39,987 nt of DNA from Candidatus Borkfalkia stercoripullorum (GTDB lineage: Bacteria; Bacillota; Clostridia; Christensenellales; Borkfalkiaceae), in the NCBI GenBank assembly GCA_019119395.1, contig DWXC01000013.1:80884-120870 (forward strand). Reading direction: 5' to 3'. Below, piece by piece: positions 21,876-28,553 of the stretch (positions are counted from its first letter, which is position 1; each line of letters starts with the position of its first letter). Below the pieces are notes generated by a model, which saw nothing but the letters and a program-made list of their open reading frames with translations, did no database searches and was not told the origin of the DNA. The translations under genes were made by a program, and so were the position numbers.

Positions 21876-22784
21876 ATGGCGTTTCTCGAAGTGAAAAATT
21901 ATCGCAAAAAGTTCGGCGACAACGAGGTGCTCAAAGGCATTTCTTTCTCTCTTGAAAAAGGCGAGGTGCTCGCCATCATCGGGTCTTCCGGCGGCGGCAA
22001 AACGACGCTTTTGCGCTGCCTGAACTTTTTGGAGATCCCCGACGAGGGCACGCTTACGCTCGGCGGCGAAACGCTGTTCGACGCGTCCGAAAAAAAGAAG
22101 AACGCCGAATCGGACATCCGCGAAAAGCGCCTGCATTTCGGGCTCGTGTTCCAGCAGTTCAATCTCTTTCCGCAATATACGGTGTTTAAGAACATCACGC
22201 TCGCGCAGACTCTGCTCGCAAAGGCGGAGTTCAGGCAGAAGAAAAAAGATTTTTCCGCCGTGTTGAAAAGCGCGCCGCCCGCCGAGCGGAAAAAACTCAA
22301 AGAAGAGCAGAAGACCATCCTCGCGGAGATCCGCGCGGGGCAGAAAAAGCGGATCGAGGAAAAGGCGGAAGGCCTTCTCTCCCGCGTCGGGCTTTCGGAA
22401 AAGAAAAACGCCTATCCTTACGAGCTTTCGGGCGGGCAGCAGCAGCGCGTCGCCATTGCGCGGGCGCTCGCTTTAAGCCCCGACATTTTGTGCTTCGACG
22501 AGCCCACTTCCGCGCTCGATCCCGAACTTACGGGCGAGGTGCTCAAAGTCATAAAGGGGCTGAAATCTTCCGAAAGCACGATGATCGTCGTCACGCACGA
22601 AATGGAGTTTGCAAAGAACGTTGCAGACCACGTCATTTTTATTGCGGACGGCGTGATCGAAGAGGAAGGCACGCCCGAGGAAGTGTTCGAAAACCCGAAG
22701 AGCGAAAAGACGAAGGCATTCCTGCAAAAATCGCGCGACCTTCTCGGCGAAGAGGCGGAAGAGGTCAAAGGGGACGTTTTATGA
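21876..22784 (+). CDS. Amino-acid ABC transporter ATP-binding protein with an extra helical insertion
   Basis: Powers uptake by the neighbouring permease. Walker A is GSSGGGKTT (36-44), the Q-loop is VFQQFNLF, the signature is LSGGQQQ (184-190), Walker B is ILCFDEP (204-210) and the switch histidine is in VVTHEME. At 302 residues it is longer than the usual 240-250: roughly 35-45 extra, very Lys/Glu-rich residues lie between NITLA (106-110) and VGL (171-173), between the Q-loop and the signature, with a charged C-terminal tail as well. The insertion is open and in frame. The stop overlaps the next ATG (ATGA). Confidence 0.94.
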
Positions 22785-23047
22785 CGGAACACGCGCATAT
22801 CCTGTACCGCGCCCTGCTCAATTGCGGCAACGAGGAAGACGTGCGGGCGCTTTTGGACGATCTTTGCACCTATCAGGAGCAGGAGCAGATGATCCAGCGC
22901 GCGTATGCGGCGAAAATGCTCATCGAGGGCAAAACGTATGCCGACATCATCGCGGAAACGGACATCTCTTCCGCAACGCTGTCGCGCGTGTCGCGCGCGT
23001 TGCAACACGGCAGCGGCGGGTATAAAAAACTGATCCCCCGAACATAG
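22781..23047 (+). CDS. TrpR/YerC-YecD family regulator
   Basis: An 88-residue protein of the TrpR-like YerC/YecD family: an all-helical dimer with helix-turn-helix in [28 protein letters not shown]-like [23 protein letters not shown] precedes it. Targets of the Firmicute members are unknown. The ATG overlaps the ABC ATPase stop (ATGA), so translation is coupled and the regulator may sense or control the transported amino acid; that link is inference. A terminator follows immediately. Confidence 0.88.
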
Positions 23048-23094: not shown

Positions 23095-23123
23095 TTGACT
23101 TTTGCACGGCACGGGTATACAAT
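23095..23123 (+). promoter_or_regulatory. Promoter of the NifX-like/ZIP/Crp unit
   Basis: TTGACT (23095-23100), 17-base spacer, TACAAT (23118-23123); CGGAG lies before the ATG at 23157. Confidence 0.85.
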
Positions 23124-23156: not shown

Positions 23157-23573
23157 ATGAAAATTGCGGCGACTTATCTTGACGGAGAAATTTTTCAGCA
23201 CTTCGGGCATACCGAGTATTTCAAGATCTACGAAACGGACGGCAAAACCGTGCAAAGCAGCGAAGTTGTTTCTTCCGACGGGTTCGGCCACGGCGCGCTC
23301 GCGGGTTTTTTGAAGGGGCGCGGCGTGGATGCGCTCGTGTGCGGCGGCATCGGCGGCGGGGCCGTATCGGCGCTTGCGGAAGCGGGCATAAAGGTGTATG
23401 CGGGCGCTTCGGGCAGTGCGGACGACTGCGTCGCCGCCCTGCTTGCGGGCACGCTCGAATTTTCGGGCGGGGCGAACTGTTCGCACCACGCGCACGAGCA
23501 CGGCGAACGCGGCGAACGCGAGTGTTCGCACGGAGAGCATGACTGCGGTCACGGCGGCTGCGGGCGTCACTGA
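23157..23573 (+). CDS. NifX/NifB-like (dinitrogenase Fe-Mo cofactor family) protein with His/Cys-rich tail
   Basis: The 138-residue protein has an N-terminal 105-residue NifX/NifB C-terminal-like domain (MKIAATYLDGEIFQHFGHTEYFKIY, ALVCGGIGGGAVSALAEAGIKVYAGASG), a fold that binds metal cofactors. The last 32 residues hold eight histidines and four cysteines, a probable metal-binding tail. There are no nitrogenase genes here; many anaerobes carry such orphan proteins of unknown role. It shares its promoter with a ZIP transporter 44 bases downstream, so metal binding or delivery is a reasonable inference. Confidence 0.88.
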   Translation: MKIAATYLDGEIFQHFGHTEYFKIYETDGKTVQSSEVVSSDGFGHGALAGFLKGRGVDALVCGGIGGGAVSALAEAGIKVYAGASGSADDCVAALLAGTLEFSGGANCSHHAHEHGERGERECSHGEHDCGHGGCGRH

Positions 23574-23617
23574 ATTATGCATATCGAAGCGCGCCCCTGC
23601 GGAAAATACATAGTACT

Positions 23618-24409
23618 ATGTTAGGCAAAGAATTGATTTTTGCGCTCATCGGCACGGGCGCGACCTGCCTTGCGACCGTGCTGGGCGCGGCGCTGGTGTT
23701 TATTTTCAAAAAAGACATGTCGCCCAAGACCGGGCAGATCTTTTTGGGGTTTGCGGCGGGCGTCATGACGGCGGCCGCCGTCTTTTCCCTGCTTCTTCCC
23801 GCAATGGACGAGCTTGAAGCGGAGGGGAAGAGCGTGTTTCTGCCCGTCGGCGGCGGGTTCGTGCTCGGCGCGCTGTTTTTGTTCGTGCTCGACAGGGTGC
23901 TGCCGCACATGCACATCGGCAGCGACGAAGCGGAAGGGCTTCCCTCGCATTTCAAAAAGACTACCATGCTCGTCTTTGCGGTCACGCTGCACAACATACC
24001 CGAAGGCATGGCGGTGGGGCTGGCCTTTGCCGCGGCCGCGAACGCGGGGGCGGGCGCGCTTCCCGCGGCGATCGCTTTGGCTGCGGGCATGGCTCTGCAA
24101 AACTTCCCCGAGGGGGCGGCGGTTTCCCTTCCGCTCCGCTCGGGCGGCACGGGTAAGGGGAAAGCATTCCTCTGCGGCGCGCTTTCGGGCATCGTCGAGC
24201 CGGTTTTCGGCATTCTGGCGGTGCTGATCGCGGGAAGCGTTTCGGGGCTGATGCCTTGGTTTTTATCCTTTGCGGCGGGCGCGATGGTCTACGTCGTCGT
24301 CGAAGAACTTATACCCGAGGCGCATCTCGGTCAGCATTCACATATCGGAACGGCGAGCGTTCTTGTCGGCTTTTTCGTGATGATGATGCTCGACGTGATG
24401 CTGGGCTGA
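23618..24409 (+). CDS. ZIP-family divalent metal transporter
   Basis: A 263-residue membrane protein of the ZIP family (ZupT-like), which imports zinc, iron or other divalent ions. The paired metal-site motifs are present: HNIPEG at 125-130 in one membrane helix and QNFPEG at 161-166 in the next. A late EELIPEAH also fits. About eight hydrophobic segments are seen. The binding site before the ATG is poor. It lies between the His/Cys-rich NifX-like gene and the Crp/Fnr gene (4-base gap), suggesting one unit. Confidence 0.93.
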   Translation: MLGKELIFALIGTGATCLATVLGAALVFIFKKDMSPKTGQIFLGFAAGVMTAAAVFSLLLPAMDELEAEGKSVFLPVGGGFVLGALFLFVLDRVLPHMHIGSDEAEGLPSHFKKTTMLVFAVTLHNIPEGMAVGLAFAAAANAGAGALPAAIALAAGMALQNFPEGAAVSLPLRSGGTGKGKAFLCGALSGIVEPVFGILAVLIAGSVSGLMPWFLSFAAGAMVYVVVEELIPEAHLGQHSHIGTASVLVGFFVMMMLDVMLG

Positions 24410-24413
24410 AATT

Positions 24414-25070
24414 ATGGATTTTGCAAAGTATTCTTTTTACGATAAACTGACGGATAAAGAGCGGGAATTTTTCCTCGCTTCGCTGCGAACGCGCGAATTT
24501 GCCGCCGGGCAGGACGTATACCGCGGCGACTGCGCGGGGCTGATCTTTACGAGAAGCGGCAGGCTGTGCGCGTATACCCTTTCCGAAACGGGGCGCGAGA
24601 TCTCGCTGTACCGCCTGACTGAGGGGGACGTGTGCCTTTTCAGCGCCTCGTGCGCTTTGGAAAACGCCGATTTCGACGTGTTCGTGCGCGCCGAAACGCA
24701 AACGCGCGTCGCCCTGCTGCCTGCCGACGCGTTCAAAAAACTGTCGGAAAGTTCTCTCGCATTTTCAACCTTCGTGAACGCGCTGACGATGCGGCGGTTT
24801 TCCGACGTGATGTGGGTGCTCGACAGCGTGCTGAACAAAAAGTTCGACGCGCGCCTTGCGGCGCTTTTGCTGGAAGAGAGGAAGTATGCGGGCGCGGACA
24901 GGCTGAAAGTCACGCACGAACGGCTCGCCGCGCACCTCGGCACGGTGCGCGAGGCGGTTTCGCGCATGCTCAAATATTTCGAAGGGGAAGGGCTGATCCG
25001 TATTTTCCGCGGAGGCATAGACATCGCGGACGTAAAAGCGCTGGAAAAACTTGCAATTTCCGAAAAATGA
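24414..25070 (+). CDS. Crp/Fnr-family transcriptional regulator
   Basis: A 218-residue protein with an N-terminal cyclic-nucleotide-binding-like beta domain (about 10-120), a dimer helix, and a C-terminal winged helix (THERLAAHLGTVREAVSRMLKYFEGEGLI, about 167-195). Four cysteines (40, 52, 74, 80) lie in the sensor domain but not in the N-terminal Fe-S pattern of Fnr, so the signal is unknown: heme, redox or persulfide sensing are all possible. A palindrome typical of this family lies at about -41 of the next promoter, so it probably activates the thioredoxin-rhodanese-CoADR genes. Confidence 0.93.
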   Translation: MDFAKYSFYDKLTDKEREFFLASLRTREFAAGQDVYRGDCAGLIFTRSGRLCAYTLSETGREISLYRLTEGDVCLFSASCALENADFDVFVRAETQTRVALLPADAFKKLSESSLAFSTFVNALTMRRFSDVMWVLDSVLNKKFDARLAALLLEERKYAGADRLKVTHERLAAHLGTVREAVSRMLKYFEGEGLIRIFRGGIDIADVKALEKLAISEK

Positions 25071-25091
25071 CCGTGAAAAAACCGCGTATCT

Positions 25092-25104
25092 GTAACAATG
25101 TTAC
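25092..25104. promoter_or_regulatory. Probable Crp/Fnr-family operator
   Basis: GTAAC (25092-25096), AAT, GTTAC (25100-25104): a perfect 5-bp inverted repeat, centred at 25098. If transcription starts about 7 bases after the TATAAT at 25127-25132, the centre is at -41, the classic activator position. Confidence 0.7.
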
Positions 25105-25126
25105 GGAAAAAAATTTCTTTTCGGGG

Positions 25127-25132
25127 TATAAT
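25127..25132 (+). promoter_or_regulatory. -10 element of the thioredoxin operon promoter
   Basis: TATAAT at 25127-25132 has no good -35 at normal spacing, which is typical of activator-dependent promoters. GAGGAGG lies before the ATG at 25165. Confidence 0.75.
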
Positions 25133-25164
25133 AAGCGTACAAATCACCCGAGGAGGAAAGGAAA

Positions 25165-25467
25165 ATGCAGGTAAAAACGGTTACGGATAAAAATTTTGAC
25201 GAAGTTTTGCGGCACGAGGGCACGGTACTGCTCGACTTTTGGGCGGGCTGGTGCGGCCCCTGCCGCATGATGGCGCCCGTCGTGGAAGAGATCGCAAACG
25301 AACGCCCCGACGTGTTCGTCGGCAAGGTCGACGTCGACGCGGAGAGCGGACTCGCGCAGAAGTTCAACATCTATTCCATACCCACGTTCATCGTGCTCAA
25401 AAACGGGGAAGTGACGGCGCAGACGGCGGGCGCGCGCCCCAAAGCCGCGTTGGAGGAACTGCTGTAA
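25165..25467 (+). CDS. trxA: Thioredoxin
   Basis: A 100-residue protein with the active site WCGPC (Cys30 and Cys33), the FWAGWCGPCRMMAP context and the cis-proline IPTFIVLKNG: a standard cytoplasmic thioredoxin that reduces protein disulfides and persulfides. It has its own activator-type promoter. The stop shares a base with the start of the rhodanese gene, so the two are translationally coupled. Placed beside rhodanese and CoADR, it may serve sulfane-sulfur chemistry rather than general reduction. Confidence 0.96.
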   Translation: MQVKTVTDKNFDEVLRHEGTVLLDFWAGWCGPCRMMAPVVEEIANERPDVFVGKVDVDAESGLAQKFNIYSIPTFIVLKNGEVTAQTAGARPKAALEELL

Positions 25468-25772
25468 TGCTGTTTTCTCTGTTCAAAAATTTTACTTCTT
25501 ATGCGGAGCGTGCAAAAAATACGCCGGGCGCGCGCATCATAGACGTGCGCACGGAAGAGGAGTACGCCGCGGGGCATCTTCCGCAGGCGGAAAACATCCC
25601 GCTCGATAAATTGAGCGGCGCGCGGTTCAGCGAGGGAGAAAAACTGTTCGTTTACTGCCACAGCGGCGCGCGCAGCGGCAGGGCGGCGGCATATTTGAAG
25701 AGGGCAGGCGCGGATGCCGTCGATATGGGCGGCATCGCGGGATATAAAGGTGAAATTGTCGGAGGCAGATAA
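25467..25772 (+). CDS. Single-domain rhodanese (sulfurtransferase)
   Basis: A 101-residue rhodanese domain with an active-site loop CHSGARS (Cys64) and the upstream signature RIIDVRTEEEYAAGHLPQAENIPL. It accepts sulfane sulfur on the cysteine and passes it on. Start shares one base with the thioredoxin stop; the CoADR gene begins one base after its stop. It has no signal peptide; a short MLFSLFKNFTS start is only mildly hydrophobic. Confidence 0.93.
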   Translation: MLFSLFKNFTSYAERAKNTPGARIIDVRTEEEYAAGHLPQAENIPLDKLSGARFSEGEKLFVYCHSGARSGRAAAYLKRAGADAVDMGGIAGYKGEIVGGR

Positions 25773-25773
25773 C

Positions 25774-27468
25774 ATGAAGGTCGTCATCATCGGCGGCGTC
25801 GCGGGCGGCGCGACCGCCGCGGCAAGGCTGAGAAGGCTCGACGAAACCGCGGAGATCGTCGTTCTGGAGCGGGGCGGTTATGTTTCCTATGCGAACTGCG
25901 GTCTGCCGTACTATCTCGGCGGCGTCATAAAGGAGCGGTCGAAACTCCTTTTGCAGACGCCCGAAAGTTTCAGGCGGCGGTTCAATGTGGACGTGCGCGT
26001 CAAAAACGAGGTTTTGGAGATCCTTCGCGATAAAAAGCAGGTGCGCGTGCGCCGCTTGCAGGACGGGAGCGAATATTTTGAAAGTTACGACAAACTCGTG
26101 TACTGCCCCGGAGCAAAGGCGCTGCGCCCGCCTTTTATACGGGAGGACGCGCGCATCTTCACGCTGCGCACCGTCGAAGATACCTTCGCGATAGACGACT
26201 ATATCAAGGCGAACGGCGTAAAGAGCGCGGTCGTGGTCGGCGGCGGGTTCATCGGGCTGGAAGCGGCGGAAAACCTGACGGAGCGGGGCATAAAAGTAAC
26301 GCTCGTACAGCTCGAAGATCAGGTCATGCTGCCCTTCGATTACGACATGGCGTGCATTCTGCATTCCAAACTGCGCGAAAAGGGGATCGACCTTCGCCTT
26401 TCAAGTAAAGTTGCTTCCCTGCGCGGGGAAGAAAGCGGCGTCGTCGCCGAAATCGAGGGGAAGGGCTGCGTGCGCGCGGACATCGCGCTTGCGGCGGTGG
26501 GCGTCGCGCCCGAAACGGACTTGGCGAAGAGTGCGGGGCTTTCGCTCGGCATCAGGGGCGCGGTGCTCGTCGATGCGCATATGCGCACGTCCGATCCCGA
26601 CATATACGCCGCGGGCGACGCGGTGCAGGTGAAAAATTGCGTCACGGGGAAGGATTCCCTCGTCCCGCTTGCAGGGCCTGCGAACAAGCAGGGGCGCATC
26701 GCGGCGGACAACATCGCGGGCATTGCGAGCGTCTATAAAGGGGCGCAGGGTTCGTCCGTCATGAAACTGTTCGAGCTTACGGCGGCGTCGACGGGGCTCT
26801 CCGAACGCGCCGCGCGCGAGGCGGGTTATGCGGCTGAAAGCGCGCTCCTGTTCTCGCCCGACCATGCGACGTACTACCCGGGCGCGAAAAACATGACGCT
26901 GAAAGTCGTGTTCGACCGCACGGACGGCAGGATACTCGGCGCGCAGGCGGTCGGCTTCGGCGGAACGGAAAAACGGATAGACGTGCTCGCAACGGCGATC
27001 CGCGCGGGCTTTACGGCGGAGGAGCTGACCGAGCTCGACCTCTGCTACGCGCCGCCCTATTCATCGGCGAAAGATCCCGTCAATATGGCGGGGTACGTCA
27101 TCGGCAATATTTTGCGCGGAACAGTCCGTCAGCACACCTGGAAGGACGTCGAGAAGCTCGCAGACGATGAAAACGCGCTGTTTTTGGACGTGCAGACGAG
27201 GGGAGAGTACGATGCCGCGCACCTTGCGGGCGCGATCAATATTCCCGTGGACGAACTGCGCGGGCGCATGAACGAGCTGGATAAAAGCAAAACGGTCTAT
27301 GTGAACTGTTACAGCGGTTTACGCAGTTATATCGCCTGCCGCATGCTTTCCGCGAACGGGTTCAAGTGTTCCAATCTTGCGGGCGGCATACGTTTTTACA
27401 AGGTCGTCGCCGAGGGCGGCGCGTACGACGAAGTGCCGCGGCATCTGTGCGGCGCTGTCAGCAAATGA
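25774..27468 (+). CDS. CoA-disulfide reductase-rhodanese fusion (CoADR-RHD)
   Basis: A 564-residue FAD/NAD(P)H pyridine nucleotide-disulfide oxidoreductase. N-terminal FAD motif VIIGGVAGGATAAARLRR, single redox cysteine in YVSYANCGLPYYLGG (Cys42), NAD(P)H motif VVVGGGFIGLEAAENL, and a second FAD motif IYAAGDAVQV. From about residue 465 a rhodanese domain follows, with active Cys512 in VNCYSGLRS. Family members reduce CoA disulfide or CoA persulfide and polysulfide; here the fused domain and preceding rhodanese and thioredoxin suggest sulfane-sulfur reduction. I start at 25774 with GGAGG upstream; a longer open frame to 25714 overlaps the rhodanese gene. Confidence 0.95.
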   Translation: MKVVIIGGVAGGATAAARLRRLDETAEIVVLERGGYVSYANCGLPYYLGGVIKERSKLLLQTPESFRRRFNVDVRVKNEVLEILRDKKQVRVRRLQDGSEYFESYDKLVYCPGAKALRPPFIREDARIFTLRTVEDTFAIDDYIKANGVKSAVVVGGGFIGLEAAENLTERGIKVTLVQLEDQVMLPFDYDMACILHSKLREKGIDLRLSSKVASLRGEESGVVAEIEGKGCVRADIALAAVGVAPETDLAKSAGLSLGIRGAVLVDAHMRTSDPDIYAAGDAVQVKNCVTGKDSLVPLAGPANKQGRIAADNIAGIASVYKGAQGSSVMKLFELTAASTGLSERAAREAGYAAESALLFSPDHATYYPGAKNMTLKVVFDRTDGRILGAQAVGFGGTEKRIDVLATAIRAGFTAEELTELDLCYAPPYSSAKDPVNMAGYVIGNILRGTVRQHTWKDVEKLADDENALFLDVQTRGEYDAAHLAGAINIPVDELRGRMNELDKSKTVYVNCYSGLRSYIACRMLSANGFKCSNLAGGIRFYKVVAEGGAYDEVPRHLCGAVSK

Positions 27469-27486
27469 GATGATATATAATAAACG

Positions 27487-27522
27487 GGCGGCGGCGCACG
27501 GTTTCGTGCGCCGCCGCCTTTT
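27487..27522 (+). terminator. Terminator after CoADR-RHD
   Basis: A 14-bp perfect stem (27487-27500 with 27505-27518) with loop GTTT and then TTTT. It shares the GGCGGCGGCGCA core with the hairpin at 4112-4149. Confidence 0.92.
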
Positions 27523-27555: not shown

Positions 27556-28512
27556 TCATATCTGTTTGAATTTCATCACGATGTCCTGCGGGTAGTCTCC
27601 GAAGCCTTTGCCGAACAGGTTCAGCCCGCCCTGATGCTCCGCGCTTTCCTTTACGCCGATCTTCAGGCGGATGTGGTCGCCGCCTTCGTGCAGGAAATCT
27701 CCGATCGTAACGTTCGCGTTGACGGGCTGGCCGTTCAGGCAGCAGCCGTTCTCTCCTATGGTCAGGGTATACAAAAGCCCGTACTGCGTGGCGTTGAGCG
27801 GCCAGTAGGCGGGGGAATAGTTCCCCGCGCGCCCGCCGAAGTCTCCCGGGCAGGTAAACGTGGCGATCTCTTTTCCGTTCAGCCAGACGGTGACGTCGCT
27901 CGGCCAGTCGTTGCGGTAATAGGGCGCTTCCGAACAGCATTCGAAGGAGATCTCGATGTGATTGTAAAAGGGGTACGCGGCGAGATGGTTGGGAAAGTTG
28001 TAACTCACGTCTCCGTGCGAAAACCCGAGGATCTGCGCGCCCGTCCTTTCCGGCGTGAACAGCATGGAAGTGATCTGGTCTTTTTCAAAGAGATATTTTT
28101 CGGAATCGGCGAGATAGCCGCTGTTTCTGATGTTCAGTTCGACGTAATTTCCGACGGGCATCTCCACGGCGATCGCTTTGTGCGCGGGTTCGATGTCTTT
28201 GTCGGAATAGTCGATGCCGATCTCCACGACGGCTTTGTAACACAGCTTCATATGTCCCTTTTTTGCGGGCTGGTACTGTATTTTGATCAGGCGCGCCCCT
28301 TCCAAAATATTGATATGGTTGGAAACCGAGCTTGCCGCAAGGCCGAGCGCTTCGGCGATCTCCAATACGTTCATCGGCTTTTCAGACAAAAGCCGCAGGA
28401 TGCGCATCCTGTCGCGCGAGGAAAGCGCTCTGCCGAGCGCGCATATTTTCGCGTCGTCGTTTTCGTCCATGACGGAAAGATTCAGTTTGCTGACGCGGTG
28501 CAGGGTATTCAT
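27556..28512 (-). CDS. ArsR-type HTH regulator with a large C-terminal effector-like domain
   Basis: The 318-residue protein begins with an ArsR winged helix (residues 25-95; KPMNVLEIAEALGLAASSVSNHINIL). The remaining 220 residues are beta-rich, with VTVWLNGKEIATFTCPGD and NYSPAYWPLNATQYG, resembling ligand-sensing domains seen on ArsR-type regulators beside glycoside hydrolase genes; the fold is not established from sequence. It lacks the metal-binding cysteine pattern of classic ArsR. Start at 28512 has AAAGGAG upstream. It is divergent from a GH2 gene, so a role in glycoside sensing is inferred. Confidence 0.85.
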   Translation of the reverse strand: MNTLHRVSKLNLSVMDENDDAKICALGRALSSRDRMRILRLLSEKPMNVLEIAEALGLAASSVSNHINILEGARLIKIQYQPAKKGHMKLCYKAVVEIGIDYSDKDIEPAHKAIAVEMPVGNYVELNIRNSGYLADSEKYLFEKDQITSMLFTPERTGAQILGFSHGDVSYNFPNHLAAYPFYNHIEISFECCSEAPYYRNDWPSDVTVWLNGKEIATFTCPGDFGGRAGNYSPAYWPLNATQYGLLYTLTIGENGCCLNGQPVNANVTIGDFLHEGGDHIRLKIGVKESAEHQGGLNLFGKGFGDYPQDIVMKFKQI

Positions 28513-28553
28513 GATACGTCTCCTTTGAAACATTATCTTTGTGATTCAAATTT

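Follow-up and report, generated by a model that had tools for sequence, protein, structure and literature searches.

The region considered here is a cluster of six genes in a 39,987-nucleotide stretch of DNA from the gut bacterium Candidatus Borkfalkia stercoripullorum, a member of the Clostridia (GenBank assembly GCA_019119395.1, contig DWXC01000013.1, positions 80,884 to 120,870 of the forward strand), which is referred to below as the window and which belongs to a genome of 1.87 Mb in 39 contigs. The cluster occupies positions 23157-27468 and encodes, entirely on the plus strand, a NifX-like protein, a ZIP family metal transporter, a Crp/Fnr-family regulator (Crp), a thioredoxin (Trx), a single-domain rhodanese, and a CoA-disulfide reductase fused to a second rhodanese domain (CoADR-rhodanese, or CoADR). 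An initial annotation of the window had placed the six genes at these positions and on this strand, and each of them scores above its Pfam cut-off. The spacing divides the cluster into two units: NifX is followed after 44 base pairs (bp) by ZIP, and ZIP after 4 bp by crp; a gap of 94 bp then separates crp from trx, rhodanese and CoADR, which are coupled, as the initial annotation had stated, by a 1-base overlap between trx and rhodanese and a 1-base gap between rhodanese and CoADR. The start of CoADR was set at 25774 by alignment with relatives, the longest open reading frame (ORF) starting at 25714. The features of the region are the following:

23095-23123, plus strand: promoter-like site of the NifX-ZIP-Crp unit, TTGACT-17 nt-TACAAT, agreeing with 10 of 12 consensus positions.
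23157-23573, plus strand: NifX-like protein (PF02579) with a His/Cys-rich tail; Pfam Nitro_FeMo-Co, 80.4 bits against a cut-off of 26.3.
23618-24409, plus strand: ZIP family metal transporter, BbZIP/ZupT-like; Pfam Zip, 77.8 bits against 35.1.
24414-25070, plus strand: Crp/Fnr-family regulator; HTH_Crp_2, 61.1 bits against 27, and cNMP_binding, 34.9 against 27.5.
25092-25104, unstranded: palindromic predicted operator GTAAC-AAT-GTTAC (context TGTAACA-A-TGTTACG).
25127-25132, plus strand: -10 element TATAAT, 29 bp past the operator centre, without a good -35 element.
25165-25467, plus strand: thioredoxin, CGPC; Pfam Thioredoxin, 105.1 bits against 23.5.
25467-25772, plus strand: single-domain rhodanese, CHSGARS loop; Pfam Rhodanese, 54.2 bits against 22.2.
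25774-27468, plus strand: CoA-disulfide/persulfide reductase with a C-terminal rhodanese domain; Pyr_redox_2, 188.3 bits against 26.1, and Rhodanese, 54.5 against 22.2.
27487-27518, unstranded: hairpin 3' of CoADR with 14 pairs, 13 of them G-C, scored as a terminator on the minus strand.

The palindrome between crp and trx, GTAACAATGTTAC (25092-25104), is the sole match in the window when up to one mismatch is allowed, compared to an expected count of 0.03. Synteny was compared across 25 genomes of the same genus, the window's own included, 13 of which encode a clear Crp (expectation value E of 3e-73 or better); the Crp of G007 is a 35% relative, and that of G005 is only a weak match. In all 13 genomes with a clear crp, this gene is followed by trx with GTAAC-N3-GTTAC in the gap between them, and the sequence that surrounds the palindrome varies. 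A search of 40 genomes of the genus found the perfect site GTAACANTGTTAC in 16, once in each and always between crp and trx, and three further genomes of the 40 have a one-mismatch site there. Among the 25 genomes common to both searches, the perfect site is present in 11 of the 13 that have a clear crp and in none of the 12 that do not; G003 and G004 carry GTAACAAAGTTAC in its place. One-mismatch sites elsewhere in the 40 genomes are not commoner than in a reversed control, and no query genes lie near those loci of this kind that were checked (L216, L220, L221, L225, L227, L230, L232, L233, L236, L242 and L092). The window's genome was also searched for a wider regulon: up to two mismatches, there are 14 sites per strand compared to 29 in the reversed control, and one is perfect. 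Because the two-mismatch sites do not rise above this control, no regulon is claimed beyond the crp-trx site. The palindrome was missed in the initial annotation.

Canonical Crp/Fnr sites are even palindromes, which in the present terms are written GTGAC-N4-GTCAC, so that GTRAC-N3-GTYAC is one base shorter. A scan of named genomes for this type of Crp yielded the best 80 loci, 67 of them outside Borkfalkia, and the Crp neighbourhood is enriched for GTRAC-N3-GTYAC at the odd 3-base spacing only. In the 134 regions upstream of crp, trx, rhodanese and CoADR in the 67 loci (divergent genes may share a site), the exact site occurs in 14 regions, compared to at most one at each of the other spacings between 0 and 8; when one mismatch is allowed, it occurs in 42 regions, compared to at most two at other spacings and a mean of 2.5 after shuffling. 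When the 80 loci are taken with their whole neighbourhoods, 27 exact sites have spacing 3 and no other spacing has more than 3, whereas the count with up to one mismatch at spacing 3 is 80 against a mean of 50.5 for shuffles that preserve single-base composition only, and of these two only the exact count is clear. Outside the genus, Trx stands no more than 3 kb from the regulator gene in 37 of the 67 loci, CoADR in 20, rhodanese in 8 and NifX in 4, and at least one of trx, rhodanese and CoADR is found within this distance in 48. At E 1e-20, this type of Crp is present in 83 of 291 genomes of the class; a strict 15-bp form of the site occurs seven times in the 291, once between crp and trx (G074) and once 1.9 kb from crp (G309).

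The position of the palindrome relative to the promoter was evaluated with 26 chosen sites 5' of trx (17 from Borkfalkia and 9 from others), for each of which the best -10 hexamer was sought 22-37 bp downstream. The hexamer starts 29 bp past the palindrome centre in 25 of the sites and 30 bp past it in the other, and this fixed distance would place the operator centre near -41, which is the position, established for CRP, of a class II activator of the Crp/Fnr family. At the trx promoter of the window no -35 element was scored, nor was any promoter-like site. Operator sites are also found 5' of crp itself in some other families. In L118 (4231-5000), which comes from a more distant Clostridia genome, tandem operators, one of the GTGAC and one of the GTAAC type, lie 5' of trx.

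The initial annotation had proposed that metal supply and sulfane-sulfur reduction stand under one regulator, and for metal supply this was not supported, since no GTRAC-N3-GTYAC site within one mismatch lies 5' of NifX in the window or in the 80 named loci, and the NifX-ZIP-Crp unit has a consensus-like promoter instead. That promoter match, TTGACT-17-TACAAT, is weak on its own, because the region contains two such sites compared to 1.5 expected; a TTGAC(A/T)...TATACAAT layout is visible at the same place in several relatives. As there is no operator site 5' of NifX, it appears more likely that NifX and ZIP are co-expressed with the Crp regulator than that they are controlled by it.

The regulator itself was compared in a set of 81 sequences, consisting of the window protein and the 80 best matches of a search. 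Its recognition helix reads TVREAVSR, in which R179 and E180 are kept in all 81; we take Glu180 to occupy the position of CRP Glu181. Residue 178 of the helix is Ala in 63 sequences, Val in 17 and Ile in 1, and in the loci compared it covaries with the half-site: GTGA sites are found at 40 of the 42 Ala178 loci that have a site, and GTAA sites at 14 of the 16 Val/Ile178 loci. The exceptions count against the relationship (L107 and L115 carry GTAA with Ala178, and L147 and L163 depart from the Val/Ile178 pattern, while L118 has one site of each type), and the loci are not independent, because Borkfalkia contributes eleven of the loci with Val or Ile as well as L107 and L115.

The cysteines of the window Crp lie at positions 40, 52, 74 and 80 only, and C40, C74 and C80 are invariant in all 81 sequences, whereas C52 is not. 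FNR has an N-terminal cysteine cluster that serves a 4Fe-4S centre, and the window protein has no cluster of this type. The predicted fold is Crp-like, with a mean predicted local distance difference test (pLDDT) score of 87.7 and values below 50 at residues 78-81; the resemblance to the cAMP-binding CRP is one of cNMP fold, and by alignment the loop of the cyclic-nucleotide pocket is presumably replaced by a cysteine loop. The best structural match is 3dv8 (Eubacterium rectale EUBREC_1222; E 3e-51, template modelling score of the fold 0.91, 40% identity), which shares the DC-G and C-L-SASC cysteines and is a structural-genomics entry named in the open-licence literature only as a modelling template. 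It was the template for PgRsp of Porphyromonas gingivalis, which is reported to be a heme-binding, redox-sensing Crp/Fnr regulator of the hmu operon and of bcp (PMC6955866). No paper on the present regulator or its site was found among open-licence papers, a search in which some terms probably missed the slash spelling of "Crp/Fnr".

The GTAAC half-sites raised the possibility that the regulator is HcpR2, a Crp/Fnr regulator of anaerobes that has such half-sites and hcp genes as its targets (Rodionov 2005, PMC1274295). This identity was rejected on the grounds of spacing and of the helix residue. According to that source (PMC1274295), HcpR2 sites are GTAACnnnnGTTAC and the protein has Pro at 181, whereas the window Crp has a spacer of 3 and Glu180. 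The exact N4 spacer of the HcpR2 type is found in one of the 134 upstream regions, while spacer 3 is found in 13 of the 13 same-genus sites, and all 81 Crp sequences have Glu180 rather than the Pro of HcpR2.

The enzymes of the second unit retain their catalytic cysteines, in the CGPC motif of Trx, the CHSGARS loop of the rhodanese, and C42 and C512 (the latter in CYSGLRS) of CoADR, and the sulfane-sulfur or thiol-redox role proposed for the unit in the initial annotation is consistent with these enzyme types. CoADR is closest to Npsr of Shewanella loihica (3nta), BaCoADR-RHD (3icr) and the CoA-persulfide reductase of Enterococcus faecalis (8a56), with which it shares domain order and both catalytic cysteines, and with the last of which it aligns over 544 residues; it falls below the curated cut-offs of the CoA-disulfide reductase models (495.7 against 578.8 bits, and 400.6 against 458). 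Sulfide induces the E. faecalis enzyme and two rhodaneses under the control of the dithiol repressor CstR (PMC9405070). The cst-like operon of that species (CstR, RhdA, RhdB, CoAPR; PMC9405070) resembles the window in bringing rhodaneses and a CoA-persulfide reductase together in one unit. It differs in that the window has, in place of the CsoR-family repressor CstR, a Crp/Fnr protein whose operator is placed as for an activator, and in that the window unit starts with thioredoxin and has NifX and ZIP attached to it. By analogy, the window unit would clear CoA-persulfide and related sulfane sulfur.

Within the genus, the order NifX-ZIP-Crp-Trx-rhodanese-CoADR is complete in G000, G002, G008, G012 and G014; NifX is missing from it in G003, G013 and G022, ZIP in G004, and both in G024. 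Among the relatives that lack crp, G006 has NifX-ZIP-CoADR and G001, G011 and G017 have NifX-CoADR, so that the linkage suggested in the initial annotation is borne out by four crp-less genomes with NifX directly 5' of CoADR, once with ZIP; in G016 and G021, also crp-less, CoADR is found without these neighbours. In a tree of CoADR with 24 rows, the inner support of which is partly weak, the full gene set appears in each of the two main branches of the genus and G017 is placed among genomes that carry it, and loss of the middle genes, bringing NifX next to CoADR, would for this reason be the simpler reading.

The NifX-like protein carries eight His and four Cys in its last 32 residues, exactly as the initial annotation had counted. 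In its subfamily C108, H110 and H111 are invariant in 17 of 17 aligned relatives and the His/Cys/Gly tails are variable; solved relatives are 1t3v and 1o13. A match is present in 152 of 391 genomes of the class at E 1e-20, and in the 40 best loci outside the window's genome, CoADR is found within 5 kb of NifX in eight (from seven families), Crp in four, Trx in three, rhodanese in two and ZIP in one. L282 (G048) brings NifX, Crp, a ZIP protein (98.1 against 35.1 bits), CoADR, rhodanese and Trx together in a different order, and NifX is divergent from Crp in L140, L154, L180 and L181. Its position next to CoADR in the four crp-less relatives, and near CoADR in eight of the 40 loci, indicates that NifX is truly linked to this gene set. 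In L181 (4141-5873), NifX also stands beside rubrerythrin-like and desulfoferrodoxin-like genes. L299 (5764-6492) encodes a fusion of DUF134 and a NifX-like domain that may be a regulator carrying a metal-cluster domain; one of 29 NifX ORFs recognised by pattern has this fusion. The ZIP protein, which is closest to BbZIP, has the metal-site motifs HNIPEG and QNFPEG. Its place in the whole set, as the initial annotation had drawn it, is not sustained beyond the genus, where none of the 67 loci has ZIP inside 3 kb of the regulator gene; among the 40 class-level NifX loci, ZIP is present in one.

The comparison shows the gene set, its linkage, the operator, its geometry, the covariation and the invariant cysteines, and on this basis the reading that we favour, and hold to be rather probable, is that the regulator is a thiol-switch Crp/Fnr activator of a thiol- and persulfide-reducing operon, a Crp/Fnr counterpart of the cst-like operon run by CstR, with a signal that we infer. 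The NifX-ZIP-Crp unit would be transcribed from its consensus-like promoter and would supply the regulator, which would bind the 13-bp palindrome GTAAC-N3-GTTAC near -41 and bring about class II activation of trx-rhodanese-CoADR. The rhodaneses would accept sulfane sulfur, and CoADR-rhodanese would use NAD(P)H to reduce CoA-persulfide or polysulfide, yielding CoA and sulfide; the substrates of thioredoxin would be protein disulfides and persulfides. A role of Crp as a sulfur or redox sensor is predicted as likely: its signal would most likely be sulfane sulfur or disulfide stress, perceived through C40, C74 and C80, three residues within and next to the loop that takes the place of the cyclic-nucleotide pocket. 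The least certain part of the proposal is the metal side, in which the His/Cys tail of NifX, together with ZIP in this genome, would most likely keep a metal (zinc or iron) available and bound during sulfide release. A stronger form is put forward only tentatively, namely that a Crp/Fnr subfamily of Clostridia, with a three-cysteine loop where the nucleotide pocket would be, directly senses sulfane sulfur and activates persulfide-reducing operons through an operator 1 bp shorter than is usual for Crp/Fnr proteins. It would then play, as an activator, the part of CstR in many gut Clostridia, and in Borkfalkia it would form one module with a His/Cys-tailed NifX and a ZIP transporter that hold and replenish metal against the sulfide produced.

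The module bears on how strict gut anaerobes sense reactive sulfur, for which the known sensors, CstR among them, belong to other families. Culturable relatives would allow a direct test of a regulator that is dedicated to one target, has invariant cysteines and a predicted operator, and shows a change of specificity readable in one helix residue. An odd operator of 13 bp would broaden the known range of Crp/Fnr recognition, and the link between NifX and CoADR provides an initial clue to a common NifX-like family that has His/Cys tails.

Several observations weigh against the favoured reading. Crp-trx occurs in G010, G020 and G023 with rhodanese and CoADR not beside it, and crp-less relatives keep CoADR, so that the crp-trx and CoADR parts are not mutually required. 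Many of the counts include related genomes. Outside the genus, 19 of the 67 loci have none of trx, rhodanese and CoADR inside 3 kb of crp, the upstream regions include 92 of 134 that lack a site even when one mismatch is allowed, and five of the seven strict sites lie near no query gene; none of the query genes is near NifX in 32 of the 40 class-level loci, and ZIP is nearly lineage-specific, being near-confined to Borkfalkia. Binding of Crp to the operator, activation, the signal and the role of the metal are all steps that we infer from the comparison of sequences.

A serious rival, although we judge it somewhat unlikely, is that the regulator responds to oxidative or disulfide stress (oxygen, peroxide or diamide), with the operon serving general thiol repair and sulfane sulfur being incidental. 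Trx is the commonest partner of this Crp (37 of the 67 loci, compared to 20 for CoADR) and crp-trx stands alone in some genomes; TrxB lies within 5 kb of Crp in 11 of the 67 loci and desulfoferrodoxin in 9, so that oxygen or disulfide stress fits these neighbourhoods as well as sulfane sulfur does, and rubrerythrin is found beside NifX in L181. PgRsp, for which 3dv8 also served as template, is reported to be redox-sensing (PMC6955866). The presence of a rhodanese and a CoADR-rhodanese in the operon nevertheless suggests sulfane sulfur, and the window unit is without a peroxidase. It is improbable, in our estimate, that the three cysteines instead carry a metal or a cofactor (Zn, Fe-S or heme) served by NifX and ZIP, which would make the protein primarily a metal, heme or gas sensor. 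Three invariant cysteines, in a protein encoded in one unit with ZIP and a NifX that has a His/Cys tail, would suit such a sensor, as would the binding of heme by PgRsp (PMC6955866), but the first Cys is residue 40 and there is no Fnr-type N-terminal cysteine set, no invariant His lies near the cysteine loop, ZIP and NifX are not near most members, and the model of loop 78-81 is of low confidence.

The palindrome could also belong to another regulator, such as one of the Fur family, with Crp a coincidental neighbour. The Fur family uses 7-1-7 boxes, and TGTAACA-N-TGTTACG can be read in that layout; the site and crp, however, co-occur, the sites cluster at crp neighbourhoods, the half-site changes with residue 178 of the Crp helix, and a GTGA half-site is of the Crp type and is accompanied by the invariant R179-E180. 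A Fur-type owner was rejected on the grounds of the co-occurrence and the covariation, and a foreign owner of any kind is considered very unlikely. Still less credit is given to a chance neighbourhood of two unrelated operons, which the initial annotation had said would be the conclusion if the units stood apart in relatives with no shared regulation. NifX is alone in 32 of the 40 class-level loci and ZIP is nearly lineage-specific, as such a view would expect, but the synteny came out against chance: the linkage recurs in several families with varied gene orders, and a rough Poisson estimate with assumed gene densities gives probabilities of 3e-6 for NifX-CoADR and 2e-20 for Crp-CoADR. These results contradict chance for Crp, Trx, rhodanese, CoADR and NifX, though not for ZIP.

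The cluster is flanked on its 5' side by a YerC/YecD TrpR-related gene at 22781-23047 (TIGR02531, 72.6 against 42.2 bits), which overlaps the 3' end of an amino-acid-type ATP-binding cassette (ABC) transporter operon, and the gene order ABC-YerC-NifX is seen again in L028/L105, L072 and L073. On its 3' side, a gene at 27556-28533, which encodes an ArsR-type winged helix and a long C-terminal part without a Pfam match, converges on CoADR across the strong hairpin.

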